This document shows, piece by piece, positions 29,791 through 61,723 of a DNA stretch of 64,000 bases. The stretch's first letter is position 1, and every line of letters begins with the position of its first letter. A program made the position numbers and the translations under genes. Origin of the DNA: Lepisosteus oculatus (lineage: Eukaryota > Chordata > Actinopteri > Semionotiformes > Lepisosteidae); assembly GCF_040954835.1 (NCBI RefSeq), contig NC_090718.1, positions 12,229,532-12,293,531 of the forward strand, read 5' to 3'. The notes under the pieces were generated by a model that made no database searches, was not told the DNA's origin, and was given only the letters and a program-made list of their open reading frames with translations.

Positions 29791-32700
29791 CTAATGGCCA
29801 CTGTCTACAATAAAAGGGGGAGCGGGCAGGACTCCATCAGCACTGTAGATTGGACAAGCCTTGAAGTCACATGGCCAGTCTTTCCAGGCGTAACGCAGGC
29901 CAGAAACTTTCAATTTACAGTTTTCTGTGGACAGTACAACAGAATCGCTGTTGGCCTTAGTGATTGGTGCTGGGAGCCACGAAGAGCTGGAATCGCCAAC
30001 TTCCCTCTGCCTGGAGCAGCAGACCTGTCGGTCACAGCACAGAGAACACAAAGGTAAGTCAACAGACAGCCCTGAAGTCAAGGATGAGAGTATGTGGTTT
30101 TTAATGTTGCGGTACACTCGCATCACTTGTGCAGATTTTAGGTTATAAACCCCAATTAAAACATGGATCACTTAGGGATTACAAATCAGTAAAGGCAAAC
30201 TAATAGTGTAAGTTTACGTAAGTCAGATCATTGTTCTGGTGAAATTCAGTTACACATCTTCACTTTTTCCCCATAAGGAACCAAAACAACATGCAAAGAT
30301 TCTGCCAGCATGACGAGTCTGCGAAGACTAGAGAGTGTTTGGGGTTCGACGGGATGTAATGCTACTCTTTTACCGTGCTGTAATCGAAAGCATTACGATC
30401 AGTTTGGCTCTGTAATCTAGCAGTTCATTTTAAATAGCAAATTACCAGCCTCTTCCAGACCGCTTTGAAGGTCACGGGAGTGAAATGGCACCCCTCCCTG
30501 CAGACAATCTTTGAAAAATCCATAATCAAACAGGCAGGGAAAATTATATCGGATCCTTCCCACATCCTCAGCTCTGAATATCAACTTCTTCCTTCTGGCA
30601 AACGTTTTAGGGTCCCCAAATATAAGTCAAACAGATACGAACATTCCTGTGTTCCACTATCCATTAAAGCTGCCAACGCAAATGTCAAGGATAAACATAA
30701 TTTTGACTCTTACAACCCACTTGAGTGCAATCTATTTTGTGATGTGTTATAAATGTTACATGTTGTTATGTGTTATACTGTACATGTGCAATAGAATAGA
30801 ATGTTTTCTTATTTTTTGCAATAGTGTAATGTGCAATGTTTTTCTTCTCTTTTAGCTTTCTATTTAAATGTACAGGAATGCTGGGTGTCCATTACAAATT
30901 TCCCTCAGGGGACAATACAATCTTATTTACACAATTAGCAAATTTGGCCTCATATTCTCAAGATAGTCTCATCCTGGTCTGTGAGAGCTTCAGTCCTGAA
31001 GGTTTAAGTTGTAAACTACAGTAGAAGTGAGGGTAAAGATTAAACTGGCTGACACGAACACTGAACTCCTTGAACGTCTTAGAATAGAGCTTTGAGGGCT
31101 TTATTCTAGTGTGCCTCCTCTTTTTAGACGAAAAAAAATGAACTTACTTCAAAGATGCTCTTGTGAAGCGTGACGGAGATGTTTGTGGAGTAGATGATGC
31201 TGATGTTAGCTGCTTGAACAGAAATCTTCTGCGGGAAAGGACCCTGGAAAGACACTTTTTCTCCGTAGGCCACAGCCCGCGCCCCCAGTGTCAGCCGGTA
31301 AGCCACATCCTGTTTATAGCGTGGGTGGATACTAAGAGATACAAGCACTGTGGTTAGTGCTGCACCACCAGGACAGAAGTCAGCATCGGTGGCCCTGAAG
31401 AACTACTACCTATCGATGTAACAAGTGGCTCCTAGTCAGATGGCAGACCCCGGGATACAAGGGCCAACTTGAAATTTTTAAGTGGTAATTTTTCACATTA
31501 CAGTCAGTCATAGCTGGAAAAAGCAAAAGACAGGCAGTGCGAATAAGTCTTCAGGACATAAATTGCAATGGACAAGTGGAGTTTCTGAACGTCCCCCAGC
31601 ACAGTGCTGCAAGTTGTTTTGAAAAAGTCTAAACCAGCTGGTTAAGACTTGTGCTTTAGTCAGCTCCTTCCTGAAAGGATGTACAGTGAGCCTAAATAAG
31701 ATTAAAGGGGAACTGCAAAGCTATTTTCATATTTCCGGGTTAGAAAGAATCGGCATCGATGAGTCAATCTTAAACCACGATGAAAGTCAAATGTACACAG
31801 CAATGTGGAAAACCTCCAATTCAAGTCGCAAAACAGGCCAAATTTCTAGGGATGTGCAGCTCAATATTCTGCGTTTCAGAATGAGACAACAACACTTGCG
31901 GTGATGTGAAGTGGCTCTATTACATTGTAAACAAGCAGGCTTGTGAGAACATCTCTCTTAATCCAACAGAAATATTGTGTTCGATTCCCAGACCGTTTTG
32001 CCGATAACTACTACTCTACTTGTTCCAACTTGATCTGCATGTAGAGTTAACACTTCAGTGTTGAAATGTCTGCTGCACAACCTGTACTTATTCTCTCTGT
32101 ACATCGCATTGTAGTGACTAGTGAGCAGGAAAGGCTGCATCACGTCACAATGCTTTGCAAACTCTTGCTCTTGCCAAGGGGCGAGACCAGGGGTTTGCGA
32201 CCCCATGGCGACTTTACGGTATTTTCACAATGTTCACAATTTTCTGCTCAATTTGGAACATGGTGAAAGTTTGCGGACTGCCAATGAATTTATTTTCTTA
32301 CCAAGATTTAATAACCGGTCTGAGAAATTCGGACTGCAGTTTCCCTTTTAAGGAACGCCTGCTGTTGGGAGTTGGAAAAGATTGGCGCGGGTGACCAATC
32401 CTTTTGAATCCTGCTATGATCGAAGAGCTAGAAACAAAGTTAAGCTTCTTTTTGACCAGTGAAATGGGGGTGATGTCCTACCTGCCCCATGGCGACCTCT
32501 CATCCCCCAAGTCCAGACTGACAGCCATAAAAGTATTCTTCATGCGTTTGTTAGGAGCAAAACCAAAGTCGGCTGTCTGCTGCCATCTCAGGTTAGGATA
32601 AGCATCGCTCTGTGATTTTTTCATATAGGTTGAGATCTGAGGAAACCACAATGTGGGCTTTATTTTAAGGAAGTCGTAGAAGGTCTGGTGGGTGGACTCG

Positions 32701-35700
32701 ATTGTCGTCTAAACGCACAGGTGTGGAGGGGGGGTAGGCACTGTACCTGCACGAATCCGAAGGGCAGATCTGCCGGAGTTTGGCCTCCTGAGCCCTGGTG
32801 AAAGGCCAGTCTCCAGTCATCAATCATTGCCGGGAAGGTGCAGTTGTACAGGTCCTGATGGTATTCTGTATTTGCCTCACCTGTGAGCAGGCGAGTGAGT
32901 TAGCACATTGCCTTGAAACACATAGCTGATAATGGTCTGTACAGACTTTAATGCTCTTCAAGAAGGCCGCTAAGCCAAGTACAACAAAGTGCACACATCC
33001 ACCTCTTTAAAAGACTATTTAATGATAGGCACCAAGTCTATAGGCTCAGGGTTTCAAAGCGAAGTCCTAAAAAGAGGATGTGGAAACTGAAATTATGGTA
33101 ACTTTTCTGCAGATTGTATATGACCCTGAATTAGCCCTTTGCTTTTGTGTATGAATATATTTACAGACATGCATACTGTAGCTCACAGATTCACTCAGTT
33201 CGGACTCTCTTCAGTTACATACCACTACAAGCTGTTACTGTAGGTCATATAGTGTTTGTGGTGCCTTAGACGAGTCAAGTACAGTTTTTTTAAAAGACGT
33301 ACAGATTTGAAGTTCTTTTTGAGGTGAACAATATGGAGGTGATTAGTCCCAATAATCTTGGTGAAATCGGTGACAGGGATGTGATCTCTTAGTGTGCAAA
33401 GACCAAGATCTGAGAACGAAAAGCAGTGACTGCAGTTTCTCACCCTGATACCAGATAGCTCCCCTGATGGTCATGTTGAGCAGGGGATGGATCATCGCAT
33501 TCCACAGCACTGTATTTTTCCAGTGACCCTCCTTCACCTGCAGCCTGGCAAGAGATGGATCACATCAGAGCTGAAGTGTAAGGAAATGGGGTGTTGTCAG
33601 CCGAGATGTGATGGTGCCGAATGGCGTCATCTCGGTCGCGTTTTCTGATTTGCGAGGCAGCATTTGTGGGCAACAAGTTTATTTGCAGACACGAAAACTG
33701 AAGTCCTGCATGTAGCCACGGGCTCCTTCTGGTTTGTCGAACACCGTGAAGGTGAAAGATTTGCTAGCAGCGCTGTGCCTGAGCTGTGGTGTTGTGTGAC
33801 CCGCGTGCTGCTTTCATACACAGCCCCCTAGCCCTCCTGTTGTACCATGAATGGCTATAGATGCATTGGGTTTTTTTTTCAAATCAGTGAGCAGGCGTCT
33901 AGCACAGGAAACTGTGGCTTCATAATTGATTGAGCCTCGTCTAGGTTGCTCTCATATACTGCAGAAAAAGACCAAGGAAAGAGAAGAAGTACAGCCAAGT
34001 CTGTCTCATTCAGTCTCTCTGTGAACTGTGCTTGCAGGAATGCTGTCAGCTTGCAGGGATTTGCAGTGGGAGGGGTGGTGCATTTTAATGGCTGTTGTGC
34101 CCATCACAGCAGGTTTTCCACAGAGCCCTTAACAGATTTCTTAACAACAGATACACGGAGCACAGTACGCCAGTCTGAAGATGGTGATTACTTAGTAGTC
34201 CCAAGAACCTCAACAACAACTGTTAAGCACAGCCTTTGGTCCTGTGTGGAATAACAGATCAGAGATGCCTCAACAGTCTTAGTTTATAAATTAAAGGGGA
34301 ACTGCAGTCCCAAATTTTCAGATTGGTTATTAAATCTCAGTAATTTTTTTCCCCCCAAACTTCGAGTTAAGCACAATGAACTTTGTCAAAGTACTGTATG
34401 GTCACCATTGTTGTTGCAAACTGCTGGTCTTGACACGGGCAACAGTGAGAGTTCCCACGAATTTGCGACGCGACATGGCCCTTCCTGCTACATCATGTTT
34501 TAACGTGGTCTGCATGCACAGTTAACATCTAATATCTAGCAGCAAAACCATCTTGAAATCAAGAGCAATATTTCTATGGATTTAAAAAAGATAAATTCAC
34601 AAGCCTGCTTCTTTACAATGTAGTAAGGCAGCTTCACCTCACTGGAAGTTTTGTGGCCTCGGTCTGAATCGCAGACCATGACAGCAACAGGGTGCTGTGC
34701 ATACCTGGAAACTTTGTGACATAAATCGGAAAGGTGCACATTTTACTTTCGTTGCGGTCTGAAATGCACTCATCGATGCTGGTTCTTTCGAACCCGGAAA
34801 CACGAAAATAGAGTTGCAGTTCCCCTTTAAGATAAGATCAAATCACTTTACTGGCCATATACAATTTCTTGTATTGGGAATTTTGTCTTATTCGCCTACC
34901 CCAACTTGCTCTCCATGAGACACACAGACAGGGAGAGAAGCCTGGGACAGAGCACAGGGTCAGCCATTTATACGGCACCCCTGGAGCAGTTGGGGTTAAG
35001 GGCCTTGCTCAGGGGCCCAACAGAGTAGGATTCCTCTGCCGGCTGCGGGATACGAACCGGCAACCTTCCAGCCACAGGCGCAGATCCTTGGCCACCGCAC
35101 TGCCCTTTAAGGCTGAAGACCTACGTTCTCAGTCATTGTTTTCAATTAAGTTGAAAATAGACTTCTATTTTTTCTATCCAGACAGTAGAAAACAAAAGAC
35201 ATTAAAGGCCAGATCCCAGTGTTGGAATGTGAGGCCAAGCAAGGAGATCCCAGAGGGTCGGGATACCAGAATCTGTTAAGCCAGACCCGGGAAACCTCAG
35301 CCATCGCACAGGAAACTCCATTCTGGGATGTTTTCTAAGCGAGCTGCCGGCAGCGGTGAGCAGCGTCGGTCACCGCTGCGAAGACCCTCGGGGGGCTCAC
35401 CTGCTCGGCGCGTCGGCCAGGCCACAGTGCTTCAGCGCCCTCCTCGAGGACCACGCCTCCACGGGGGTGCCGCCCCAGCACGACTCAACCAGGCCCACGG
35501 GGTCCCCCCGGCTCTTGTAGAGGTCGCGTCCAAACAGCCAGCAGACGGCGGAGAAGTGGGTGAAAATCCCTGCGCCCAGGACCTCTGCCACCGGTGACAA
35601 AACACAAACGCAAAAAAGCTTGTCTCCGACAGCGTGCCAGAATACGAGACACCAGCGGCGGCATTTTTTTAAAAATAAAGCCTGTTTACCTGCAGAAGGG

Positions 35701-38063
35701 ACAGACCAGGGCAGCTCTACTCCGGCCAAGTCGGTTAGCTTCACATCGCTTTTCTCCAGAGCCACAGAGAAGACACGTACCCTGGGGAACTTTGCAGCCT
35801 GGGATAGCTCTTCAGTGGCGTTCATCACCTGGGCAACAGGAGACGTCAGCACTGGGGAGCCCCACCAATACTATCACAAACCCAATTCGCTCAGTTCTAC
35901 CCGCTTAAAATATCCCGTGGCCTGCTCTGAGAAACTGCAGAAACTGTTGTGAATTCTGCATCTATGACCTTGTATAAATGGGAGTTACCCAGACACATAA
36001 CTACACTTGGCTCTACACATTAGTGGGGGAGGACTGTGTAGTCAAAAGGCTTTCGACTCCTCTTCGCTGTTACTTGAAGGAGGTTGCAGGTGTACCGTTT
36101 CGTCATGCTAAGCATTCTCAGGTTGCAGGAGTTAAAATGAACGTGTCCCCACTGGCTTCCTAAGAACTGAACAAAAACGCAGTGGTCAAATATGCTAAAC
36201 AAGTCAGTCCTTTTAGGGGCTGTGCGTGCTAGCCCAAAGAACCTCAAGGAGATGACAGACAAACAGCACTGTTAATTATATTCAGAATATTCTTTCGGTG
36301 AGCGATCTCCTGTTTGGTGCGTCTGCCTGCTTACTCCCTCAGACAGGCTGCAGCCTCGCACCTGGGACAGGGTCATCTCCATGTTGCTCTGTCCCCCGCA
36401 GAGCCACACGTCTCCGAAGAGGACGTCGCTCAGGTTGCGGACTGTGGTAGCCAGTCGGCTCTGCTGGACAGCACTCAGGACGAAGGGCCCTCCAGGATTC
36501 ACTGGGTCCAGAGTCACCCTCCAGATGCCTGTTGGAGTAAGGAGGGTGAACTTCTCGAGACCCCTTAAAAGGAGAACCGCAGTCCCGATCTCTCAGACGG
36601 GTTGTTAAATCTCGGCAACAAAAGAAATCCATTGATGGAAAAAAATGGACAAATTCCTTATCGTGAACTTTGTGAAAGTGGCGTAAGTCATCATGTTGTC
36701 ACACACCCCTGGTCTCGGCACGTGCCCGAGCCCACGCCAACTGTAATGTGATGCGGCCCTTCCTGCTCGCTAGTCAGGGAATGACTAATGAGATGTATGA
36801 GCGCATAAGTACAGGCTGTGTGGCAGATGTTTCACCGCAGAAATGTTCCTACGTGGCCTGCACGCAGAGCTGACGAGTTAGTAGTATTTCTCGGCAGAAA
36901 CCGTCTTGAAGGCGAGAGCAATTTTTCTACTGGCTTCAAAACGAGATGTATTCACAAGCCTGTTTGCTTACAATGTCCCAGGGCCGCAAAACATCACCGG
37001 ACGGTTTGTTGCCTTGTTCTGAATCGCTGTGCATACTTGGAAATTCCAGATATTTTGCGACGTCACCTGGAGGTTTTTACAAGTTACTGTGTCCACTTGA
37101 GTTTGAAATGCGCTCATCAATGCTGATTCTTCCTCACCTGCGGTTCCCCTTTAAGAAGAAGCTTTGCCCCGTTGGGCGTGTAACACCCCTCCCCAAAGGT
37201 AGCCAGTCTCCTTAAAGTGTGAAGTGCCTCCTAGACACAGGCTCCTACCAGATTTTCCAGATCAAGGAAAAGAATGGGCAAGTTTCAAGTTGTCTAAAAA
37301 AAGAATGCCATGAGCCTCTGAAATTGAACTTAATGGTTATGAGCTGGAGGGGGGGGGTTTGCTGACCTTTGTCCACATTCACAGTGTGTGAGACCTTCTC
37401 CCGCTCTCCCACCACAGTGACGGTAACTTCAGCCGCATCTTCGCCGTATCCCCAGACCACCGCTCGCTGCGGTGCCTTCTGGAGAACCATGTGATCCCCG
37501 TAGTAAGAGGCAAAGCGGAATTCTTGTTCTGCAACAGAGCAAGAACATCACCCGGTTTATAAGGAAGAAAGAAACGAGCATTAAAACGAATAAACGCAGA
37601 CAGCCACCAATGTCCCCGCTTCTGTTTTTCTCCAGCAACAGCCGATCAGAGTCCGGAGTTAGTGCAGTGCTTTCAGAGCTGTAGAGAGTGGGGGCAAACA
37701 GCAATTTGACAAGTGATACTTCATCTTAATCTAGTTCTGTTTGTGATCCAGACCAATCGCATTCAAGCCAAGTCTTTTGTGGAACAAGCTGTTTTTTTTT
37801 AAGTGTGCACTTCGCAGTCACTCACAAGAGAACGCTTTAGCTCCTTTAACTTCATCGGGAAACCATTCACACCCAACAGTAGGCTTACGAAAGAAAAAAC
37901 AGCCGCTGCCCACGGTTAAGCAGTAGGTATTCAATGGCTATATGGTATTCTCCGGTGAGCTAACAAAAGCAAGCCCGACTGCAAAGCTTCGTTACTTACG
38001 GAATCCATACAAATTAGCTACACAACAGAGTAGCCACAGCGTTCGCAAGCGATTCAAAGTCAT
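29791..38063 (-). CDS. siae: Sialic acid acetylesterase
   Basis: There are ten coding exons, in transcript order: 38063-38000, 37528-37367, 36528-36362, 35828-35690, 35584-35401, 33544-33444, 32880-32747, 32636-32482, 31331-31148, 30024-29791. They are phase-consistent and give about 507 residues (human 523). The ATG begins a signal peptide (MTLNRLRTLWLLCCVANLYG). The SGNH-hydrolase nucleophile motif CGGQSNMEM places the serine near residue 123, and the SIHPRYKQ motif places the catalytic histidine near residue 371. Other matches to human SIAE are FGDVWLC, SCWGGTPVEAWSS, WNAMIHPLLNMT, WYQGE, LGARAVAYGEK and LRYAWKDWPC. Several N-glycosylation sequons (NLS, NAT, NMT, NCT, NIS) fit a secretory or lysosomal enzyme. 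It removes 9-O-acetyl groups from sialic acids. The loop between AWSS and WNAM is changed relative to human. It is convergent with tbrg1. Confidence 0.95.
30440..30850 (+). mobile_element. LINE ORF2 C-terminal fragment
   Basis: The + strand frame at 30465-30752 reads KAGKII-like SDPSHILSSEYQLLPSGKRFRVPK, the typical end of a fish LINE ORF2 (IISDPSHPLHxEFxLLPSGRRFRxP). It is followed by a stop and an AT-rich tail. The element is truncated at its 5' side and lies in siae intron 9, antisense to that gene. Confidence 0.65.
31702..32351 (-). mobile_element. TTAAAGGGG-type MITE in siae intron 8
   Basis: It starts TTAAAGGGGAACTGCAAAGC and ends CTGCAGTTTCCCTTTTAA, so imperfect terminal inverted repeats are flanked by TTAA on both sides. 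The internal block TTACATTGTAAACAAGCAGGCTTGTG is the reverse of CACAAGCCTGCTT..TTTACAATGTA in the other copies, so this copy lies in the opposite orientation to them. It encodes no transposase. The TTAA target suggests piggyBac-type mobilisation. Confidence 0.75.
33594..34062. repeat. Unclassified ~465 bp repeat, copy B (siae intron 5)
   Basis: This is the second copy of the repeat described at 6056-6519, 27 kb away and about 97% identical by eye. It starts 50 bases upstream (in siae sense) of exon 6, just inside the intron. Confidence 0.75.
34291..34830 (+). mobile_element. TTAAAGGGG-type MITE in siae intron 5
   Basis: A 540 bp unit runs from TTAAAGGGGAACTGCAG to TTGCAGTTCCCCTTTAA. The terminal repeats are near-perfect over 16 bases including the TTAA. 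This copy is the cleanest of the family in the window. No coding capacity is seen. Mobilisation in trans by a piggyBac-like transposase is an inference from the TTAA flanks. Confidence 0.8.
34831..35110. repeat. Dispersed repeat in siae intron 5
   Basis: The segment beginning AAGATCAAATCACTTTACTGGCCATATACAATTTCTTGTATTGG continues through GCAGTTGGGGTTAAGGGCCTTGCTCAGGGGCCCAACAGAGTAGGATTC to CGAACCGGCAACCTTCCAGCCACAGGCGCAGATCC. It is a repeat type widespread in fishes. The class is not certain (SINE or LINE tail). It abuts the MITE directly. Confidence 0.55.
36566..37154 (+). mobile_element. TTAAAGGGG-type MITE in siae intron 2
   Basis: The unit runs from TTAAAAGGAGAACCGCAGTCCC to GCGGTTCCCCTTTAA with internal CACAAGCCTGTTTGCTTACAATGT, so it is in the same orientation as the 34291 copy. 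It is more diverged, and both flanks keep TTAA. It fills most of siae intron 2. Confidence 0.75.
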
Positions 38064-40859
38064 CGTGCATGCAGTCCAGGAAGAGAAAGTATTGCTGCAC
38101 AATACAGGCTGATCACATGCCTCATTCCCCGCTTTTAAGATCTAAACAGCACACCTAGTTTTCTTATGCCTGGTAAATTGTGCGCGTCTGATTTCTGGAA
38201 GGTATCGCAACCTCAATTAGAGGGCGTCGATCATTTAATTTGGGCGGTGGTTGTTTTTAAGAAGGGGGAATGGAGTTTTCTGTTCACTTTTAGTTTGTCT
38301 AGGAACCCAAAGTATTGCTGTTCATGTTTTACTGGGGACCAAGTATTCTGTGCCCGTTCACCAAAGGGAAAAAAAAAGATATTTCCGTTTGCATGCAGTA
38401 TTTGTTTGGAAAAATAAGCGCTTTACCATATTTCTCAGTCGGATGTTACACAATTTACGGCTAACGTCACACTGTATTCAGAAGCACTGTATCACTGGCG
38501 TTATTTCCTTTGAGATAGGCTGCTCGCCCACTGATTTGTATGTTGGCGTTATCGTTTTATCTTTTTTTATCCTTGTGAATGAACTTGGACAACCTTTGCC
38601 TAATCGGTAATGCCAGTTCACTAATAAATGATCTTTTCAAAAACATTTCTTCGACGGTGTGATTTATTGCTGTTATAATGGGTTTAAATCAAGAAATGGA
38701 AGCAAAGCGTACACTAAACTCAGAGGTTGTATGTTTTGTTTTACAGCGTTTGCGCTTTTAACATATTGTGAGCCTTCTGGAGACAATTTCATATGTCTTA
38801 CGGTAAAACATTTCAATATATCGGCAAGTACACATCTTTTGATGTAGAAAGCCCAATTGCCTAATAAACCTTGCTCACTGTAGGTCAAATGATAACGATC
38901 AAAGAGGCAGGATAAGGTTAAATATGCTATCTTCACCTACCAACACGTTTTAAGATGTTCTGTTCTGAAAACTATTTTAAAGCTCAACTTTTATAATGGG
39001 AAAACTTTTCATTCCCCCCCCCCCCCCCATTACAATCCGACGCCACTGTGTAGCACTGTTGTTGTTGTTTTAATCCTTACGGAAAGATTCCCTTTGAAAG
39101 GTACATCACTCAGCTACTCGGTACACAAGCCCGAACCCGTCCGTACCCGAGACCTTGAGACCCGACCGAGCCCGAATGCTACTGCCAAATTTAAAACCCG
39201 AACCCGAAATCGGTCACTCTCTTTTCCTCTCAGAACGAGTAGACACATGCCCACACGGAGACGTGTTCTCACAGACGCGGTTTTACAACGCTTTGCTCGG
39301 CTGCTATGCGCTGAGAAAAACTGGTATTTTATAAATCTGTACTAATTTTGAAAGTGGGGAAGGGCTGATATTGGCCTACTAAAAAAAACAGCGCTATTAA
39401 AAAAAATCATGCAGGCATGACTGGTTTTATCTGTTACACACATACGAGAGAGAGAGCGAGCGCGCAAAACGAGTTACGATGTTTTTCTAATAAAAATAAA
39501 GTTAAAACTTAAAATAATAATAATTCATTTTCACTTATTAGAAAACAGTCGGGTAGCAGATCTGTATTCGGAGTGTATAAATCTCAGTTCTGATACACGC
39601 TCACAGCCTGAGAAAAAAACAGCTGCAACGATGTAGAAAACTACAAATAATCAGAAAATGCATCAGAATGTCCGTCTGGAAAATAAATATACCGAGATGC
39701 ATTAAAATCACACCATTAGTACACAAACACATTTAAAACACAGTGCGGTTGGATTCAGTACTCAGGTACACTTGTGCTTCAAATTACTCTCCCTATAAAT
39801 AGATATGATTGCAAATGTTACAGCTATTTCTTTTCCTGTTTACAAGTATCACCTCTAATGACGTGTTCGTGACCATATTGTGGTCAGAGGCGAGAAATCC
39901 TGCTTCTAGGTACCACCAGAAGTCAGATATGTGGAGTCTTTTTTTTTCAGCACTCAATATAAAAAAACGTAGTGCAACGTCACCATTTAATGACTTACTT
40001 CTAAAAACATGGAGCAATTTTTGGTGGTCAATTAAGCAGATTATTTGTTAGACAAGATAATTTAAAGATTATTTCAGCCCACAATCAGAGTACCCTTCAA
40101 CACACAAGGATCAGAGCTCTCTTAATGGATCAGATTATTCCCTTAATTAATCATTAATGCATGAGTGGTCCTGATCTTTAGAAACAGGTGATTTCTAAGA
40201 TGATCTGGATCTGGGTTCTCCAGGATGAGGCTTGGTAACCCCTGCTCTAGATTGCATGGCATTTCAATAGTTTCCAGTGGTATGACAAATGCTGCAGTAT
40301 TATGGAATCTGGTGAGGAAGGACTTCTGTGTATATCGGGGAATTAGCCACATGGCCGTGCAAATGAAGTTCTTTTTTCCACTGGCTGGAAAGAGTCAAAG
40401 AACTACTGAGAAAGTGGAGATGGGGAGGAGAAACAGAGCTCATGTTGCCTTTGTTTATGGCTTAGCCAAACCACAACTTCTCCAAGATTCAAGTCAATTG
40501 TTATTAATCACGGCTTGTGGCTGTTCTCTCCAACACGATCATCTGTGACAAGGCCAGCACCTTAGCCAAACTGGAGTCACACCCATAGGCACACTGTGTA
40601 TTAGAAAGAGTTTTTACTTTCAGTTTATTGCTGTGAAAAAAACCCCATCAACCTATGGTTCCATACTTTTGTGAAGGTGTGCGAAGTCATCTTTTTCAAG
40701 TTGACAGGCTTTAAGCCAACCATAAAAAGGCTTTCTAGATTTTTAAAAGGCTAACTCCACCCTCTCTTTCCTCTCACAGGAAATTTGCACAAGTACACTT
40801 ACAGTACATAAAATCTCAAAGCAGAAGCTGAAGGGGACATTTTTTTTAATATCTCATGC
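38064..40859. other. Intergenic region between siae and the receptor gene
   Basis: It starts with the siae promoter side. There is a 15-base C run at about 39014. Bases 39110-39215 carry repeated CCCGAACCCG/ACCCGA words, typical of the subterminal region of some hAT transposons, so this may be a hAT fragment. A short GA/GC-rich microsatellite follows near 39447. Around 40120-40250 is a worn dispersed repeat. No SPA17-like gene, which lies head-to-head with SIAE in human, was recognised. Confidence 0.45.
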
Positions 40860-43800
40860 ATGGCTCTGGGAATGTATTTGTCACTGTTCCTTTGCTTATT
40901 AAACGGTAAGAGACGTTTTGAATTATAGGGACTGCTCTTTTCAGGACTGTTAGTTTTGGAGAATAGCGTTAAAAATGTTTATTAGCACTGCAGCTGCTGG
41001 TTCTGTTGTTTTTATACATCATTTCTTTGGGCTGAGTGGCCATCTTTCACTTTTTAACCTTTGGAGCCATTTTCATATATAAAGCAATATCCTGACATTT
41101 CAAGTAAATGTGACACACTTAAGAGAAAATAAAATATGCCTTGGGGAAAAAAGCTTCTCACTGAATTTCAGATATTGTGTTTGCCTTCAGAATGAGTTTG
41201 TGTTTAACGTCTGATTAACAGTAATGTTCAAAAATTGTTCTGGGATTCGGTTCTACTGACAAGTGATGGAGATTCAGGTCAGTTCAAATGGCTTCTTTGC
41301 CTTGAAGACATTTCAAACCCTCTGTTTTCTGTGGTATCAGGAATTACTCACCTGTGAAATCTTTTTTTAAACTTGAGGCTCATTATTCTTCGGGAATACG
41401 TTTGTGTCATATTCAGTATATATACATACTGATATGCATCAGTAGTGCTAGCAAAAGTACACTTTGAACACTTTGCATCTGTAGTGTACAAAATTATATC
41501 TTTTTTCTCTAACACCATAAAAGAATTCCAGAGTCTATTGTACTTTTCTGAAAGATCAAAACTTTTAAAAAAAATTTAACCCACAGTTAAAAAGTTGTTG
41601 CAGTGTTGTTAATCCACAGTTGCATAATACACATACTGTTTTCAGGCTGTGCAGTTTGCATTTTAAATATAAAAATGATATATTTTACATTAATTCAAAA
41701 TGTTGAAAACATTACATTAATCCAAAAGTTTACATAACAGTATATTTTTGAAATTCAGTATTTCTTAAATCCACAATTGTTTTCTTGTGTGATAATTTCT
41801 CAAGAATTAATTGGTGAACATCACCTACAGCTGGCACGTTTGTCATAAAAATACTGTACCAAGCTTTGAATTACTCTTAATCTCCATTCTTCTGGAAATC
41901 CATTTGATTTGGTTTTACATAAAGCCTCTTTCATGGAAAGTACTTTGCATGGATTCAGTAGGGCACAGAACACGAGACAAATAGAAAACACAGACCAATT
42001 GTGATAGATACACTCACAATTGACAAGTCCATTGTCATAAGACCACCATCATAAATAAGATTAGTTTTAGGTGAGTTGGGTTAAACTAGCCTCAGGGATA
42101 CATTTCAAATTTCCTGTTAACTCACTTTCATCATCTCATTTATAATCTTTTTTTAACATATAAGAATTAATGTCATTAATCATTAAGCTTTTGCCAATTT
42201 TGAAGTTCTGTAGTTAGATCCTGTGGCCAGATCCAGGTCTTTAAAGAGGTTTGGAACCACGTTTCTCTTTACAGCTGTCAGCTTGCTCACACCTTGACAG
42301 TTCTCTGCTCGGCCCTTTACTGTCATTGTTCTCACACTGCTGTGTTTACTTGGGAATTGTCTCTTGCTCTGGGTACAGGCCTCCTCCAGGCAGCTGGGCG
42401 TGGGAGTCTCCTGAACATTGAGGGGAGAGCTGGTGGGACCGCTGTCCTGCCTTGTCTCTACAACCTGACAGCTCTTGACAACAGTACAGGAAATCTGGAC
42501 ATTGAGTGGACTGTCAGAAACACAGAGAACATCAGTGATCCAGTGGTAATATTCTCAACAATTCCTCAGTAAATTTGTGAATAGGAGTAATATTTCTGTC
42601 AGATGCATGTCTGTTTGCTTTAATTAAACAGATCTTGTCTTTAAACAGCTTAATTCATATTGGTGAACAGAATAAATATAGCTGTCATATTTAAATATTT
42701 CTAGCATCTCTCAAATACTGTATCTTCATTCATATGTTATGTAACCCGAGACGGCAAGCACTCTATAGAAGATTCCCTCGGTATTCAGTATATATATATA
42801 CTAAACTTATATTGTAGCCTAATATTAAATTGACTGTCACTTTGATACTTGCATACATTTCTGTTGCTTTGAAATCACTTTACCGTTAATGTAACTGAAA
42901 TTTTGTTTTGAATCGTAGATCTGGTTTTCAGGAAACCAAGTTTTTAAACTGGTCCCGTCTTTCAAAACCAGAATATCTTTCTCAAGTGATAATCAAACTA
43001 CTGGAGATGCTTCTGTAAAGATTATCTCCCTGAGAACAGAAGACTCTGGACTTTATCAATGCAAGGTGCAGAAAGCCCCTTTTATTCAGAAGACAACCAT
43101 CAACATGACAGTTTTAGAAGATCAGAGTAAGTGATTTGATTGAATCTAAAAACTCTGGCTTGCTGCTAGCGACATACTTTAAAAAAACGGACCTTATTAG
43201 AGACACTATCAATATCACACTAAGAGTCTTCAACAACAAAAGCAGCTGATGTTACCCTCTTGAAGCCTGGATAGGGTTGAATTCTTCCACAGAGAGTCAA
43301 TTTATCGCCGCTCTGTAGCTCCAGAGGCAAATGAACTGGAGGAGGCTTATTGCAGATTGAGGAAAGTGTACAATAAAGTTAACATTATCCTGACTGCACT
43401 GTAGAGCCTTACTGCATTGCACTATGAGAATTATGCTGTTTTCTTTTAATTGAAACAGGAAAAAGGAAGGAATGAGGTATTCATATTTCTGTGGAGGTAG
43501 TTTTCTTTCATCACCAAAGTTCCACCTAAAGGAGAATTTACATGGCTTTTACTCAATTGCTCAGCTGTGTCTCGGTACAGCCTTGGGTCTGCTGTTTCCT
43601 GGAACTGTTCTGTCTCCTCAGGAATGACAGAGGAGGCCCCCTCCAAATATATTTTCACTTCTGTGCCTCTCCTGTTGCTGCTCATCTTGGTGCCTTTGGG
43701 GATTTGGTGCTTCAGAAGAAAATGTGCTTCTGAGGAGAGGTAAACACGTTTGCGGTACTTAAAAAGCCCCCAATATGAAAACTTCATGAGAATCGGTCTG

Positions 43801-45305
43801 TCCTGCTCATTCTTCCATTGTCTCTTACTTCATAATTCAACAGTGAAAGCAGTATGTCAGTTGACAACCACTCTTAAATACAACATTTCTTTCAAAAGGT
43901 CTCTAAATAACTCCTGTTTGTCTAATAGTCACAAAGATTTGATTCATATCTGCCAGCAGTATAAACAGCAGTGCTGATACATGCTAAAAGTGTAACCTCG
44001 GATCTCCTTCACAATAGTAGTTTGCTCCTTCATTAGTCAAATTGTATTTATTGTGTCTGTGTTTATTTTGAAGTGTTATACTGTTTTCATACGCATGTGC
44101 AGGGAGCCATTACTAAGGTCAAGTAATTGATGTGCTCTGATTATTTTTTAAAAAGCACATTTGGTATCGACATTTCTTAAAGGGTCTTCTGCAATTTCTG
44201 AATCACAAGGAGAACAATCCTAGGAAGATGGTCTAGTGTGCAATGTGTTTCTGGATTCCAAAAATCTCATGGAGGGCTTAAGATTTCTATTGGCGACAGC
44301 AATCAGATCACAGCTTTAAAAATGAAATGAATGTAAAACATAAAATATATAACACTTCCTCTCCAGATAAAATTTCTAAAATTCTTCTGCTTTTAGAAAG
44401 GTAGAGGGCTCTTCTTCGGTCTTAAAGGTGAGTTCATTTTTATATTCAGTAAGGCCTTTATTAGATTTAGTTTCATTACTTCATAAGTCGTATCAAAGCT
44501 TTTCATATTGTTTAAGACAGAACGCTGGACATCGTTTTGGCTTTTCAGGTAGAGTTTTGAAACAATCGAGCATTCCATAGCTTTCTGTACAAGTACTGTT
44601 TAAATTATTTTATTTCAGTGAATTTGGTAAACTTCTCTTTTGTTATTTTGTAGTAACATTGTCATCCAAAACAGCCTGTAGCAATAGAGATAACAGATAA
44701 TAGAGATAACAGATAAGATAACAGTATATTTGTAATTCTGTATGTAATGATCAAATTAAAAGTCAACACCTCCCCCATTTGTTTAAGAAGAGGGATAATC
44801 TTGAACAGGATTCCACTGACTGAGACTACTCATTTACGCAGTCTGAAATGTTTTTATTCTCTTCTTGTTTGTAAAGGATGTGTGTGAAGGTGAACACTGT
44901 GGTTTTTCTGATGGTATCTTGCAGGTCACATGATTGTACGTTTTATGTTGCATTGGATGGATATGTATGGATTTTGGTTTTGCATTACTACACAACTATT
45001 TTTGTACAAGCCATTTGGTGGATGTGTGTGTCTTTAAATTTAAACATCTCATTACAAAGGAAACAAGAATTAGCAGGGATTTTATTGGTGGTCCAGTAAT
45101 CACAAACACCTACAGATATTATTTTAATGTATTATTCATAATGGTAGGAAAGGAATGCTCGCTTGTGTTAAAAGAGAGCTCTTAATATTGAATCAGTATG
45201 TGCAGAACAGTCTATTGGCTTTTTAAGGAATCAGCTTCTTTTTTTGTTCTTTAAAAGGAGAACGAAGTTTATGAGTCAGTGGATATGCAAAGAAGACTCA
45301 AATAA
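40860..45305 (+). CDS. Single V-set Ig membrane receptor, CXADR/CTX-like
   Basis: Six coding exons join in phase: 40860-40905, 42379-42545, 42919-43126, 43622-43739, 44397-44427, 45258-45305, giving 205 residues. They encode a signal peptide (MALGMYLSLFLCLLNG), one V-set domain with Cys41 and Cys119, and the core LDIEW, GDASVKIISL and DSGLYQCKVQKAP. The latter resembles CXADR (GDASINVTNL, YQCKVKKAP). A short stalk, a transmembrane segment near 152-170 and a 35-residue tail ending in NEVYESVDMQRRLK follow. The V domain is split by a phase-0 intron, as in CTX-family genes. The usual second C2 Ig domain is absent. The tail has a YxxV motif but not a full ITIM. Human CTX genes VSIG2 and ESAM lie near SIAE, so this may descend from that cluster. 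Adhesion or immune signalling is likely, but the ligand is unknown. Confidence 0.8.
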
Positions 45306-46433
45306 AAGAAAATGCCAGGTAAGTTGTCATTCAGGTGTTGTTCTCTTAGTGAGTTCAGGCCACAGACACCTCAAAGCTTTGAGCAAGACACAGACCTCTA
45401 GGGCCGGAGTAAATGACAGGCTTTCAGTGTGTAAAAGCAAGATGGTTGTACAAAATCTGAAACAGAGTAACAGGGTTTTAATATTAAAAGTGGCAGGAGG
45501 GTGGAAGATTGGATCTAATCTCATCTTGTTTTTTTCTGGGGTAAAATCACTATTTAGAAACTTAAGAGTTTACAGCGGCTCCTGCATCTGTGAATTCTGC
45601 ATTGGAGTACTGGATCAACTAAAACTCCTTAAATCATTTATATGGACAACAAGCTGAAGGGGGTGGCACTGTGGTACACTCGTTGGCATTACTGCCTCAG
45701 AGAACCGGGGCCCTTAGGGTGCTATCTGTTTGTTTGTTTGCTATCTGGAGTTTGTATGTTCTCTCCGTGTTGGTGTGGATTTCTTCCGGGTGCTCTGGTT
45801 TCCTCCCAGGGTCCAAAAACATACTGTAGGTTTGATTCTTCTTGGAAAATTGTCCCTGGTGTGAGTGTGTGAGTGTCTGCCTCTGTGTGTGCCCCACGAT
45901 GTACTGGCGTCCCACCCAGGGTGTGTCCTGCCTTGTGACCATTGCTTTCTGGGATAGGCTCCGGCTCCCCCAGGACCGTGTTTTGGATAAAGCGGATAGA
46001 AAACGGATGGATGGAACAAGTTAAAAAGCAGATGATCCCGCAGTGAAAGAAAGGTAACTGATAATCGTATCGTTGTATACAGTTCATCCTGCAAGATCAT
46101 CCTGGGACCGAGCCCCGAGATGTGGATCTCAGAATGGCCATCTAATCCGCGGGTGTGACACACTGTCCTGGGAGAAGGTCACTCAGCGGGGAGGTCTGTG
46201 GGACTGGATGGCATTCTGAGAAAGACGACTCTGAAAAAGTTTGTGAAGCCAACTTGATCCTTCTAGTGCAATGACTGTGAAGCTAATCTGTGAAGGCTTT
46301 TCTCTTGGAAAAGGACTGGATTATACGATTGCTTTGTTCTTTTCGGCAATTTCAAAGGTAAACAAATACTTGTATTAAATGCTATTTCTGTGACATTTCT
46401 TAATTTATTAAAATACTTTTTTGGTAAATAAAG
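45301..46433 (+). other. 3' region of the receptor gene
   Basis: An AATAAA hexamer at 45301-45306 overlaps the stop codon (TAA 45303-45305). A GTAAGT donor follows at 45319. A second AATAAA at 46428-46433 is a more usual candidate for transcript end. The stretch between includes a copy of the dispersed ~350 bp repeat. Confidence 0.45.
45658..46015 (+). repeat. Dispersed ~350 bp repeat, full copy
   Basis: It starts GGGGGTGGCACTGTGGTACAC and passes through GGAGTTTGTATGTTCTCTCCGTG. It includes CCCAGGGTGTGTCCTGCCTTGTGACC and ends GAAAACGGATGGATGG. It aligns end to end with 2088-2432 and is closer to the family form seen in fishes. Confidence 0.75.
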
Positions 46434-46439
46434 TGCTTT

Positions 46440-48160
46440 AAAAAGTAATAACCTTGTTCTTCAAAGCATTCATTATTATATTATGGAGGTAAAGCATAAG
46501 ATTACCCTGAACTTATTTGGCTTACTTGTTTCAATTATTTTATTCAATACATTTGGAAATTTATATAACTCGAGGAGTTTCTGTGGCTTTGAAGTGGATT
46601 TTAAAATTTCAAGAGGAGAATTTAAATATTGAAATTCATACCTTCTTCATCATGGGATTTCTTGTGTTGTTTGGGAACATGAGAAAGCACTGCTCTGTGT
46701 CATAGCAGTTTTTTGGTGTTAGAGGAGTTATTTTTCTTTGAATAAATTAATGATGAGCAACATGAATGAGAAGGTAAAGAGAATAACTACCTTCAAAATA
46801 TGGTAAGTGGGTTTTGGAGATGTATTAGTTGAAGAGATTAAATTGTCAGAAGAATAAGGTAGTCTTTGGAAATGCATTAAATAAACACCAACTGTCTAAC
46901 ACACATGGTTGTGTATCTCAAAGGAGAACACAGCTGGTTTCACAATTCTAAGTCTCCTGAAGATTATCAGCACAAATAATGCAGAGTTTGTCGGATAACG
47001 ACTGAGTGAAGCTTATATCAAATATCTGTGAAGACAGAAATTACACCAAGCTCAGTAAGGATCACACCTGATCGCAACTTCAGATTAGATCTGCTCATTA
47101 TGTGTCTTGTACAAAATGCCCTTGGGAGTGGAAAGGTGAGGTGAAAGGTTGAAATAAACTTATTCAACATAGAAAACCATGCAAGATTTGTAGAAATGTA
47201 CAATTTCTAAACATCTGGAACAATTTCATAGTGTTATGATGAGGTAGTTGAATTGTTAAATGAAGACGTGATATTTGGCTGATATTTAGGGACTGGAGTT
47301 GCCTTATTTGAACTGATCACATGTGTAATTCATTAATAACACAAAAGTGTTGCAAATTTTTAGAAACAGACAGACTGTAAGACTCAGTAGGCTTGTGCTT
47401 TTCAGGATCAGAACTGCAGATTCCTGATTCAAGGAGCTTTTCTGCTTGTATTATTAGTTCCACTTTATCAGGGATTTTTTCAAACCCAATTGATGACATT
47501 TCATCACATAGTAATATTCCAGGCCTTGATCATGAAATCATGTGTCACAAGGACAACGTCTTGCACAATGTCTGATATTCATTTCCCCTGTGTTGCACAA
47601 GATGGTGACGTTTGAATAAGACACATTTAAGGAAACTCTGATATTTTGTCTTCCAGTTAATTAAGTAAAAAGAAGTTCCTTCAAATTTGTTGTTTAGGTT
47701 TAATCAGATTTGAAACAGATTGTAGTTACATTAGATGCAAAGCAATATAATCTTTAGCACATCATTGTATTTAAAGACATGTGAAGTTAAAGAAGGGAAA
47801 AAACCTCTGTGGAATTGGATAAAAAAAAACATATGATAAAGTATAGAAAAAAAAGGAAAAACTAAGAAGGGGCTCTAGGCTCCAGCCAACCAGTGCCACA
47901 ACCAGAAGCGTTAAGGTGGAGATGTTACTGCTATAGTTGAACCCAAGTGTTTGGAGTTGAACGTGCTGTCCAGAATGTTCAGTCCTCAAACAGAAGGAGA
48001 CAGCCCTTGCTGACTTCATTTACATTCTTGAATATGAGTGTATTTAACATTATTTGTAGCCCTCTGACTGGCTGATATTTAGTAATTGATAAAATGACCA
48101 AATGTAAAACAGAGGCAAAAACACAAGGTTGGCCTGGTTTAAATACTGAGGGAATGGCCT
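46440..48160. other. Intergenic stretch, nothing recognised
   Basis: AT-rich sequence without exons, RNA genes or classified repeats that I can identify. Confidence 0.4.
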
Positions 48161-48164
48161 ATTC

Positions 48165-48510
48165 TCACAGGCAATTGCCTGTATTTATATACAGCCTTTC
48201 ATTTCAAAGGATCACACAGCTCTTTATAAATATCTCACCCACCATAGAAGGGCAGCCCCACCTAGATGATGCCCCACCAGCAATTCCACTATTTTTCACC
48301 AGGAGCCACAGTGTACAGCGGATCAGGGGAGAAATGAGAAATTGTTTCAGCATTTGGATTGAATTGAAGGGGAGATTGAAGGAGGGTAGATTGTGCAAAA
48401 CCAGAGTGGGTTTTAGCCAGGACTCCAGAGCTTACAGCTCCAGCCTTGGAAACAGGTATTCAGGGTCTTTAATGACCAAGTATGTAGGGCCTTGGTTTCA
48501 TATTTCACTG
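48165..48510 (-). mobile_element. 5S-SINE tail, antisense
   Basis: Bases such as GCAGCCCCACCTAGATGATGCCCCACCAGC, then a GGGTTTTAGCCAGGACTCC block and TTCAGGGTCTTTAATGACCA, match the tail of the 5S-derived SINE family read in reverse. The 5S head itself is not visible in this copy. Confidence 0.5.
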
Positions 48511-48764
48511 TAATGATGGTCAAGTTTTTATTTTGTGATTTTCAACTAGATTTTACTAATAGGGAGCATAATTATTTGAGGGTCACTGAGACGTCCTTGT
48601 GCAAAAATGGATCATTGACATTTTTTATCTTGCCTAACGTGGTAAGTGTGAATCAAATCATTACTCAACTTTTGATGCTTTTGAAACAGCTCTGGTTTCT
48701 CAAAATGCTGTGAACAGAATTTTTTAGGTGTTCTGGAATAGCTGGACATGTGCTCTGGCTGGGC

Positions 48765-48812
48765 AAATGATCAGGAATTCCTCAGGAATGATCAGGATCA
48801 GGAATTCCTCAC
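48765..48812. repeat. Short direct repeat with AGGAATTCCT palindromes
   Basis: The word GATCAGGAATTCCTCA occurs twice about 27 bases apart, each containing the perfect palindrome AGGAATTCCT, with an extra AATGATCAGGATCA between them. It looks like replication slippage. Confidence 0.7.
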
Positions 48813-49087
48813 ACACCCCATCAAACCTGACATTGTCTGGGGACAGTAGATTTGCCTCCAGTGCGTCATGAGACCTCTGAGTGGCATGGCCTGCAAACTG
48901 GGAGGGAGGAGTATCAGGGTGGGAGAGCAAACAGTGAGTTTGAAAGCTGCTGTTCAGCTTTCGAGCTCTTGTTCAGGAGCACACAGGCAATGACCATTTA
49001 ACAATCAGGAAAGGTGAAAGACACTTTCCAACACAGCAAAGGCATTGCTCTCTTGTTCCTTTCTGTGTTCCTGTTTGACATCAGGCT

Positions 49088-49200
49088 TGACATGGGCAGC
49101 ACTGTGGAGCAGTTGTTAGGTTTCTGGACTTATAACTGAAAAATTGCAGGTTCCACTTTCCAGGTGAGACACTGTCGTTGTACCCTTGAGTGAGGTATTT
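49088..49200 (+). mobile_element. tRNA-derived SINE
   Basis: GGGCAGCACTGTGGAGCAGTTGTTAGGTTTCTGGACTTATAACTG resembles a tRNA-like head (box A around GGAGCAGTTGTTAGG), with a weak box B near GCAGGTTCCACTTTCC. It is followed by GACACTGTCGTTGTACCCTTGAGTGAGGTA, a body known from fish SINEs. It is degraded. Confidence 0.6.
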
Positions 49201-49650
49201 CCTAATATATTAAAAAATAATATTAAAAATTATAATCCATATTAAAAAACTAAATAGGCACAAATTATGGATTCTTATGGCAAATTTGCACAAGAACAAC
49301 GTCTACGTCGGTTGTACATAAACAGACATAATATGCTAAACGTTTTTATATACCTTCATATGCCGACATCGAGCACGCCTTTTAAGATTTGTAAATAGGA
49401 GCTTTATTTTTACACACTTATGCTAAATTTAAAAAGTCAAGACCTCGGTATATGCTAAATGACGCAGGAAAGAATCAAAGGTTATAAAATCGCTATCTAT
49501 TCAATATAAACAAAATGCGTCTTGCTGTAATCGAACCCGTTGTCTACTTCTACAAACTTCAAACGCGACCTCCTCCGCAGACGAATGTAAAAAGATTGCC
49601 ATCTAGCGCTGGTTGTCTGAAATGTCACGTGCTACATAGAAATAGATATA

Positions 49651-49825
49651 ATTGGCTGCTCGGCTTCTTACGCCCAGCCAATAGGAATTAAACAGAGTCT
49701 TCTAGCTCTTGTCCAATAGAAACAACTCTTCAGTCGAACAACAACTGACCAATAGGAATTCTACCTGCTTTACTCGTAGCAGACCAATAAGAGCTCGATT
49801 CTAGTTTCCAAGCTTAGTACGATAA
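49651..49825 (+). promoter_or_regulatory. Phased CCAAT-box array with TATA-like element
   Basis: Four CCAAT boxes lie at 49678-49682, 49713-49717, 49749-49753 and 49784-49788, spaced 35-36 bases apart, three of them within (A/G)CCAATAGGA- or CCAATAGA-like words. A reverse CCAAT (ATTGG) is at 49651. A GATAAAA TATA-like element follows at about 49820. Arrays of this kind bind NF-Y and are typical of histone, MHC class II and cell-cycle promoters. It probably drives a + strand transcript beginning near 49850. Confidence 0.6.
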
Positions 49826-50396
49826 AATCCTTTATCTCCGCAGACGTGGAAAAAGGCGACTATTACCACCTTTTAGATTTGACCTCATATTAAAGAAATC
49901 GTAATGTTTTCAGTACTGAGCTCTGTGAAGTTGGCAACAATTCCTGGCAACAAAACAGAACCGTCCCTTTTAAGATCCTACTGAGCATTTCAAAGTAAAA
50001 ATTCATTAAAGTCCCCAAAACTTTTTTTAATTGATTTATATTTGACATTTTATTGTAAAAACAAATGTATTGAATTTGTTACTTCAGAAATGGCAAATCT
50101 ATCTAAAAAGGGAAACAACGAACTACAACAAACTTCATAGTAAGGTTTCAGTTTTGACTCCCACTAAAGTAAAATGTATTCTATGGTCTGTTGAATCATT
50201 TTACAAATTTGGCATTACTGTGAAAACAAAGGATAGTAACTCAGCCAAAGCGCAGATATATGAAAAGGACAGACCTCCCCCAACCCAGAATGTGGCCTCA
50301 GTTCTGACAGATTTTCCTGGCTGCAATTATTACTGGAGTTCGAACATACCCAGCCACCCATATACACCCATACAGCCCAGAGGCCCTGTCTCTCTC

Positions 50397-50490
50397 ACAC
50401 CTGAAGAAGGCTCCACGGCCGAAACGTTGTGTTCTCTTTCTTCTTTTTTTCAGCATGGAATAAACCTATTACTTGTTCCTTTGCACCCAT
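50397..50490 (+). mobile_element. Penelope-like terminal segment with hammerhead-like motif
   Basis: CACACCTGAAGAAGGCTCCACGGCCGAAACGTTGTG is followed by TTCTTTTTTTCAGCATGGAATAAACCTATTAC and CTTGTTCCTTTGCA. The same order occurs in the Penelope-like terminal repeats at 19.6-20.0 kb. CTGAAGA plus GAAA separated by a GGC/GCC stem is the arrangement of a minimal hammerhead core, which Penelope elements are known to carry. Confidence 0.6.
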
Positions 50491-50494
50491 ATAG

Positions 50495-53318: not shown

Positions 53319-53499
53319 TAATAAGTAAAGAGGCAGTAAATTGGACAGTGTGTGATAAACGTCTGCAGATGTGAAATCACATATCTTGGGGCATCACTGC
53401 ACTCCACATATTTCAAAGCCCTTTCATTCATTTTCCTGGGACACTCAAATATTGAATATTTCAAAAGTAGAGGAAAACAAGCACTCAGCACTGTCAGTC

Positions 53500-55440
53500 T
53501 GTAGCCACGCCCACTTGAATGACATCCTCGGTAGGCCACGCCCCGCTCACCTGTCCGCCAGGTTCTGCGAGAGAGAAGGGAAGCTGGGTGAGTTTGTTCC
53601 GCGGCTTTTTGTGGATTTTTATTATTATTCCTTTATTCGAATACAGAAAAAAAAATTAATGTAATTATGTAGTGTACACCTCGCAGTATGTGGTAAAACA
53701 TTTGAATGGGGAGTTAAATATCAATTTTTCACTGTTTCGTTAACAATGCTTCTCTTAATTTTAACAAACCGCTTGTGTTTCACACACAATGTGTGTATTC
53801 CTTATACACCGATGAAAAGCTCTGTTGCAGCAGTAAAGACACTGCAGTATTGGCAGAATGAATCTCGCTTTTCCGTGTTTCTTATCTTTTATCTTGTTTA
53901 ATCTTTCTTAATCAGACACCTCATTAACATTGCTCACAAAATCAAGCGAGTGCGTTTATCCAAACCGAAAGCAGCCCACCTAGAACTGGGTAAAGTTATT
54001 TAAATATTTTACAGAGTATTTTATTTGATTATGTTGTATGTCTGTGGTACACACGCTCCGTTTGCAACAAATACTTATAAATTTAAATTGTCTCTAAATT
54101 CTAAATTCTGCTGTTTTTCTGTTTTCAGTTTAGCAGTTTCGGGCTGGACTACAAAACGGGGGTATAAGCGTGAGTATAAACATTTTTTTCATTTCCTTAC
54201 AAGTCTTTAATTGAAATAAATTGTGCGTTATCTGTCCTGGTGAAAACGCAGTTTTCTACTAAGAAACTCGGGTTTAAATTATCGTCTAAATGTGTTCTTG
54301 TGTTTCCAGTTTGGAGTCTTCGGGCAGGACAAGCTTGACTCAGCTGCTGGAATTATCTATGTAAGTATAAACCTTTTTATTCGTTTACATGAATCATATT
54401 GAAGTACAGCATACTTCTAACTTGTTGGAAAAATTTGATCCACCTTGTCATAAGAAGATTCAAACTAGGAGATAATACATTTCTCCAGGGCAGAAGTGGT
54501 TTTGACCCGACAGCACTGTAGGTTGTAGGTTTGCTGTTTATAGGAATCATTTTCTGCCAAAAGTGCGATCACTTGACTTTTTTTGATGGGCATAATACAT
54601 CTTCGTAAGAAATCGTTTTGTTTTCCAAATTGCATCACAATGGAGCCTATAAAGATTTGGATTAGTTGTTCGTGTGTTAACTCAGCTTTTTCAGAACATT
54701 TTGAATGTTAATCAAAAAGGAAATCGTAAAAAAAAACAGTAGAATGTGGTAGTTTCTATTTAATCGATACACTATAGCTTTATTGAATGTTCTGTGCCTT
54801 CGATATTCTCACACTTTAAATGCAAGCCTGATTTCTTCAATAGCCTGCTAAACAGGAACGTTACCCGTTACACCAGGTTAAGCGCTTTATTCCAACTGTA
54901 GATCTTTTTAAACTCATCTTCTGGACCTGTCGGTTAGCTCGATCTAGTTTAATAATAAATTATATATAATAATTTCGAGAAAGCACCGCTAATACTGATT
55001 TCTCTTGTTTTGCAGGAAATTTAACGAAGTTCCAGTCTTCATTCTGATCGCTGCCTCGACAAATCCCTTGGAGAAACAGTAATGTGCCGTATGTTTCTGT
55101 GCTTTTCCGTGTACTGTAGTTGCGTGCAAATCTTTTTGTACACTGTTTATTTGTAAAAGCTTTTAGCGTAAATGTATCCGTGCTTTGACACTTTAAATCC
55201 ATGTTACTTTTCACTTCAGATCCTGTGGATCTGTCGTATGTAATGGAATGCGTTGTTTAACGTTGCATGCTAATGTTTTTGTACTCTGCTTACTTGTAAA
55301 AAGTCTTTAGTGTTAATGTAGCCTTGCTTTGACGCTTTGTAATTTAAAAGGTGTTAATTTTCATTTCGAATCTGTGCATCGCTCGTACTGGAATGCTTTG
55401 TTTTGTATGCAACTTTCGCTCAATAAATTGTTGATTGGAG
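53500..55440 (+). ncRNA. Putative spliced long non-coding RNA
   Basis: A GC-rich promoter with CCACGCCC boxes (53510-53550) is followed by a first exon ending at a GTGAGT donor (53587). Later exons are at 54129-54169, 54310-54360 (GTAAGT donor) and 55016-55440, with AATAAA at 55422-55427. No frame of useful length runs across the exons; the best ATG frame in the last exon is 24 codons. Exons 2 and 3 resemble each other, and the last exon holds a tandem duplication. The structure fits a snoRNA host or other lncRNA, but no box C/D snoRNA was found. A hairpin in intron 3 is listed separately. Confidence 0.45.
54487..54560 (+). ncRNA. H/ACA-like hairpin in lncRNA intron
   Basis: A two-level stem can form: GGCAGAA pairs with TTCTGCC, and inside it ACAGCA pairs with TGCTGT, leaving two internal single-stranded pockets of about 14 bases. 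This is the shape of one half of an H/ACA guide RNA. A clear H box or correctly spaced ACA is missing, so it may be chance. Confidence 0.25.
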
Positions 55441-55513
55441 TTTGATGTGTTTTGTTGTTTCTGTTCTCATGCAGAGTTCCGTACACCCTTGGTCCTGAAA
55501 AAGCCCGGTGTTG

Positions 55514-56253: not shown

Positions 56254-56319
56254 GCAGTGAGACACCAGCCCCGAGCAAACCCTCCCAACACCTTGAAAAA
56301 ATAGCAGACAATTCAGAAA

Positions 56320-57520: not shown

Positions 57521-57529
57521 CGGGGCGTG

Positions 57530-59755: not shown

Positions 59756-59774
59756 GACTCATTTAATGCAGTTT

Positions 59775-61720: not shown

Positions 61721-61723
61721 CTG

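Follow-up and report, generated by a model that had tools for sequence, protein, structure and literature searches.

The 64,000-nucleotide stretch of Lepisosteus oculatus DNA analysed here, hereafter the window, carries a gene model for a receptor with a single V domain. Its structure, the kinship of its V domain, the lack of a C2 match and the coding constraint relative to a paralogue are directly supported. We consider it probable, at about 0.6, that this is a functional vertebrate type I receptor gene with a V domain of the CAR group on a P0-like chassis, that it forms an inverted pair with its paralogue, and that it acts through V-to-V binding. It looks like a variant of a known family of adhesion receptors and not like a new kind of receptor.

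Structure of the gene

Spliced together, the six plus-strand exons between 40860 and 45305 (Table 1) give an open coding sequence of 618 nt and a protein of 205 aa. All introns are GT-AG and the exon end phases are 1, 0, 1, 2 and 0, in agreement with the coordinates and the six-exon chain given in a preliminary description of this DNA. The protein runs from a signal peptide through a single V domain, encoded over two exons, to a hydrophobic transmembrane (TM) segment at about residues 150-170 and a short tail, and has five N-glycosylation sequons N-terminal to the TM segment. Scored with a simple matrix, the donor of exon 2 and the acceptors of exons 3 and 5 are weak sites. The peptide of exon 6 was confirmed in the DNA as written, and the strong donor 13 nt beyond the stop codon, at 45318, suggests that this exon spans 45258-45318 and that the 3' UTR is spliced.

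Table 1. Features of the receptor gene and of the neighbouring siae gene, in window positions
Feature	Position	Strand	Remarks
siae coding exons	29809..37520	-	8 tblastn pieces with human SIAE; divergent from the receptor gene
exon 1	40860..40905	+	start codon and signal peptide (MALGMYLSLFLCLLN G); end phase 1; second in-frame ATG is codon 5
exon 2	42379..42545	+	first half of the V domain; 167 nt; phase 1 to 0
exon 3	42919..43126	+	second half of the V domain (DSGLYQCKVQKAP); 208 nt; phase 0 to 1
intron 3	43127..43621	+	495 nt; position of the C2 exons in a CTX-type gene; none found
exon 4	43622..43739	+	short stalk, TM segment and start of the tail; phase 1 to 2
exon 5	44397..44427	+	31-nt tail exon RKVEGSSSVLK; phase 2 to 0; donor strong, acceptor weak
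exon 6	45258..45318	+	last coding exon ENEVYESVDMQRRLK; stop 45303-45305; probable end is the donor after 45318

The tail (NEVYESVD) is the weakest part of the gene model. Only two donors in 43745-46500 reach at least 5 bits: the one after 44427, which closes the proposed exon 5, and the one after 45318, which closes the proposed exon 6. If exon 4 is joined to exon 6, the latter is read in another open frame, with 61 nt running from phase 2 to phase 0. Use of a stronger phase-2 acceptor, at 44654, would yield a short tail lacking the tyrosine. On the present model, the predicted tyrosine tail of the receptor is likely. The NEVYESVD motif of the preliminary description does stand in the modelled tail, but it forms no canonical ITIM or ITSM: the segment ENEVYESV has E at position -2 and matches neither of the respective consensus sequences ([ILVS]xYxx[ILV] and TxYxx[VI]), and among random open stretches of 26 codons from the window, 14% contain Yxx[VLIM].

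Search for a C2 domain

Proteins of the CTX family serve as receptors in adhesion and for viruses; binding falls to the V domain, and the C2 domain is a spacer. In the gene model the second V exon is joined straight to the TM exon, as first described, and no C2 exon was found; the possibility raised at the time, that one had been overlooked in 43127-43621, ended with no Ig or C2 match by Pfam, phmmer or tblastn. The three plus frames of 43100-43642 gave no Ig match in Pfam at E values up to 10 (a scan in which the HMMER filters discard most matches above about E 0.1), with two weak unrelated matches, and in the three plus frames of the receptor gene and intron 3 the V exon was the sole Ig match. 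CXADR domain 2 had no phmmer match in intron 3. Six CTX proteins used as tblastn queries (E 0.5) against the 263-kb region C26:12190001-12453000 revealed no C2 exon at either copy of the gene; three of the six (CXADR, CLMP and VSIG1) matched the V exons of one or both copies. As a control, the first C2 exon of the genome's CXADR-like gene was matched by all six queries and the second by four, and the CXADR query matched four Ig exons of CXADR on C5 (5960030, 5963296, 5966550 and 5967247). An overlooked C2 exon was thus rejected on the results of Pfam, of CXADR domain 2 and of the six-protein tblastn search.

In the genome's CXADR-like gene, with exon boundaries placed by eye, the C2 block runs from phase 1 to phase 1 and the TM exon from phase 1 to phase 2. 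Since the block is flanked by phase-1 introns, its removal keeps the frame and yields the plan of the receptor gene. Single-V products of CXADR itself exist, as hCXADR 3/7 retains D1 alone. The soluble isoforms hCXADR2/7, 3/7 and 4/7 are natural exon-skipping products (as described in a passage of PMC9865082), that is, splice forms of a V-C2 gene, whereas in the receptor the single V is the modelled form of the gene and is membrane-bound.

Affiliation of the V domain

The V domain resembles that of CXADR in sequence. Residues 29-136 of the receptor match the Pfam V-set (E 4.7e-11), and its best match in PDB is domain 1 of CXADR (E 4.8e-19, 71.9 bits), with further matches to SCN2B (sodium-channel beta-2, 38.4 bits, extending through the TM segment), JAML (27.6 bits) and MPZL1 (23.3 bits). 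Of 111 residues aligned with human CXADR, 43 are identical. Scored against group profiles, the V domain of the receptor reaches 92.8 bits with CAR, 50.9 with MPZ and 61.4 with VSIG, and that of the paralogue 71.8, 40.3 and 52.4 bits, respectively, which corresponds to a margin of CAR over MPZ of 42 bits for the receptor and 31 bits for the paralogue. These profiles comprise four CAR, seven MPZ and three VSIG rows; ESAM, mouse CXADR and the partial V (one half) of CXADR from this genome are in the tree described below and outside the profile contrast. When rows were left out one at a time, their own group scored best for all seven MPZ and all four CAR rows, but for only one of the three VSIG rows, those of VSIG1 and IGSF11 scoring best with the MPZ group. 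A search for a viral relative of the V domain returned nine pattern matches, none of which was confirmed.

The split of the V domain points in the same direction. Its intron is in phase 0 and lies at most one codon from the site in the genome's CXADR-like and CLMP genes (in the genome's CXADR the site is visible from the exon 3 side only), and the phase 1 at the end of exon 3 is common to all three genes. The TM exon, from phase 1 to 2, is as in the CXADR-like gene. The best PDB match, the best profile and the phase-0 split therefore bear out the CXADR-like split V domain of the preliminary description. The tree of V domains proposed with it gave a divided answer: among 15 V domains the two gene copies unite with a support of 98/99, but the placement of the pair is without support, since the best tree puts it with CLMP at 23/17 and an AU test of six placements (p 0.195-0.515) rejected none, including those with CXADR, VSIG, IGSF11 and the outgroups. 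The claim that the gene is a CXADR reduced by loss of its C2 domain was not sustained, because the tree neither places the pair in the CTX family nor rejects an outgroup position, and the plan is an ordinary one in MPZ.

The gene thus combines traits of two groups. With the CTX/CAR proteins it shares a CAR-type V-set and a V domain split over two exons at phase 0; no C2 domain was found between V and TM, and the modelled tail lacks the C-terminal PDZ ligand. CXADR has such a motif at its C-terminus, whereas the modelled tail of the receptor ends in RRLK. At 205 aa, with no C2 domain found, the receptor also differs from human CXADR, whose length is 365 aa (given in a part of PMC9865082). With MPZ (P0) it shares a single V and TM with phases 1-0-1-2-0, but not a P0-type V sequence, its V domain scoring far lower with the MPZ-group than with the CAR-group profile. 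MPZ, MPZL1-3 and the sodium-channel beta subunits all have a single V, a TM segment and a short tail, and the first exon boundary of MPZ is at c.67. The MPZ splice variants c.234+1, c.235-2, c.448+1, c.449-1, c.584+2 and c.646-3, found in a portion of PMC7898366, place the following boundaries at c.234/235, c.448/449, c.584 and c.646, which gives phases 0, 1, 2, 0 from exon 2 on, identical to those of the receptor. Since MPZ has one V and a TM segment on such exons, the architecture is already known; a CAR-type V on them is new.

Inverted paralogue and probable gene conversion

An inverted paralogue lies about 60 kb downstream, on the minus strand at C26:12332507-12337000, equivalent to 103.0-107.4 kb in window coordinates and outside the window. 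Its exons 1-4 match those of the receptor in length and phase (1-0-1-2), are all open, and have no C2 match. Counterparts of exons 5 and 6 gave no convincing match, whether in 13 kb searched by tblastn or in 6 kb scanned for splice sites. Because the first ATG is lost from the paralogue, in which an in-frame internal one is kept, the receptor gene may have an alternative start codon besides its first ATG.

The two copies have diverged unevenly. Their V exons have 75-83% protein identity and the TM exon is strongly diverged, with nucleotide identities of 150/167 in exon 2, 186/208 in exon 3 and 76/118 in exon 4. Over the 179 codons of exons 1-4 the dN/dS is 0.50 (Fisher p 0.0036), in a count of two sequences from which the constrained copy cannot be told apart. 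The ratio is 0.33 in the TM exon (p 0.0058), 0.59 in the V exons alone (p 0.16, indistinguishable from 1) and 0.42 in exon 1 (p 0.35, not significant; dS 0.375 over 15 codons). The value in the TM exon indicates constraint on that exon in this frame, and thereby supports a gene that passes from V to TM. The dS reaches 1.13 in the TM exon but only 0.13 (exon 2) and 0.20 (exon 3) in the V exons. This patchwork between inverted copies is most readily explained by gene conversion that homogenised the V exons of the pair. The last 175 nt of intron 1 (42204-42378) are identical at 170 positions (97%), as against 90% in the adjoining exon 2; conserved intron sequence is a possible alternative to conversion for this identity.

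Genomic neighbourhood

The receptor gene was described as a neighbour of siae, in a region that in human contains CTX genes. Its place beside siae is supported: siae was matched next to it in divergent orientation, and the same chromosome, C26, also carries CLMP and VSIG2. No Pfam domain was found on the siae minus strand (31000-40000) at E 0.01. An open frame at 19317-19655 (+) resembles tbrg1, which would give the order tbrg1, siae, receptor. In the six frames of 45300-64000, Pfam at E up to 0.1 returned transposase remnants only; Tc1/Sleeping Beauty-like remnants lie on the minus strand at about 51.9-52.6 kb of the window, below the Pfam cut-offs.

The genome has CTX genes separate from the pair, whose names follow the closest of a small set of human proteins: CXADR at C5:5.96 Mb, a CXADR-like gene at C2:64.50 Mb, CLMP at C26:13.62 Mb and VSIG2 at C26:7.79 Mb. 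An orthologue of VSIG2 or CLMP was ruled out, both being present elsewhere on C26. Human SIAE maps to band 11q24.2. Human VSIG2 is at 11q24.2 (according to a section of PMC9520664) and its gar counterpart shares C26 with the receptor, but since the genome has this VSIG2-like gene of its own, with a split V and a C2, the receptor gene is not VSIG2. SPA17, NRGN, ESAM and VSIG2 had no convincing match in C26:12190001-12453000, those of SPA17 and NRGN being weak and of low complexity, and matches of VSIG2 and ESAM that lie shortly upstream of the window belong to another Ig gene. That gene, at about 5.7-7.5 kb in the flanking piece, is an Ig receptor gene with consecutive V-set, C1-set and I-set-like domains on the plus strand.

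A separate observation concerns C18:3.3-19.1 Mb, which holds more than 100 of the 150 V-set matches scored among 2007 candidates, mostly on the minus strand and with some pairs offset by about 930 kb. This points either to a very large array of V genes that includes big duplications, or to an artefact of the assembly.

Alternative readings

The receptor could be a member of the MPZ, MPZL and sodium-channel beta group whose V domain resembles CXADR by convergence or ancestry. The receptor and MPZ share the phase series 1-0-1-2-0, SCN2B is the second-best PDB family with a match through the TM segment, and the last exons of MPZ and MPZL1 contain a Y-x-x-L-D motif. We nevertheless hold this to be rather unlikely, given the margins of 42 and 31 bits by which the CAR profile exceeds that of MPZ and the outcome of genome-wide searches: human MPZ at E 0.001 gave eight matches on C4, C5 and C26 (2.4 Mb), none of them at the receptor locus, which CXADR finds at E 7.6e-8.

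That the gene is of CTX type after all, encoding a V and a C2 domain from exons that escaped notice, would be conceivable because conservation is lower in C2 than in V exons and the structure was read from DNA alone. It is very improbable, however, as the 263-kb stretch contains no N, intron 3 is short and free of Ig matches, and the queries that matched V exons but no C2 exon at this locus recover C2 exons in the CXADR-like gene and in CXADR on C5. The absent first ATG and tail exons of the paralogue might further suggest that the receptor is a decaying or unexpressed copy; we find this quite unlikely in view of six open exons with GT-AG introns and of the dN/dS over exons 1-4 and in the TM exon.

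Proposed function and significance

In the reading that we prefer, a chassis of a signal exon, two V exons, a TM exon and short tail exons would carry a CAR-group V, and gene conversion would keep the V exons of the inverted pair alike. The V domain would most likely bind another V through a putative GFCC' face, as in CXADR; it may bind weakly to its own kind, or to CXADR or some related CTX protein that the adjoining cell carries. The short tyrosine tail would provide a docking or endocytosis site, in place of the PDZ-binding anchor of CXADR.

Some positions of CXADR bear on the partner. The equivalents of D54 and E56 are kept in both copies, and those of K121/K123 are K/Q in the receptor and Q/L in the paralogue. 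At Y80 and Y83, by contrast, both copies have F and L, which counts against the proposed binding. All of these are positions of the CXADR homodimer interface. Besides itself, CXADR has JAM-L and JAM-C on leukocytes as binding partners (as stated in a passage of PMC10317182). The receptor may thus be one of V-to-V adhesion or recognition, perhaps for CXADR. A bolder version, which we think unlikely, is that the conversion-linked single-V pair recognises CXADR itself by means of the CXADR-binding face and acts as a one-way receptor or membrane decoy whose tail signals or internalises. Keeping the acidic D54 and E56 while losing one or both lysines would then have turned a homophilic contact into a one-way one, and the pair would be a non-mammalian counterpart of the JAML-CXADR axis.

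No description of a single-V CXADR-like gene beside siae was found among the papers listed in searches of open-licence full texts. With a V of CAR type set directly on the membrane and exons laid out as in P0, the pair illustrates how the CTX and P0 families could be connected, through one symmetric exon block that was either gained or lost, and it offers a natural test of the purpose of the C2 domain. Binding to CXADR, if it occurs, would make the receptor a new regulator of a junction and virus receptor that has been studied in depth.
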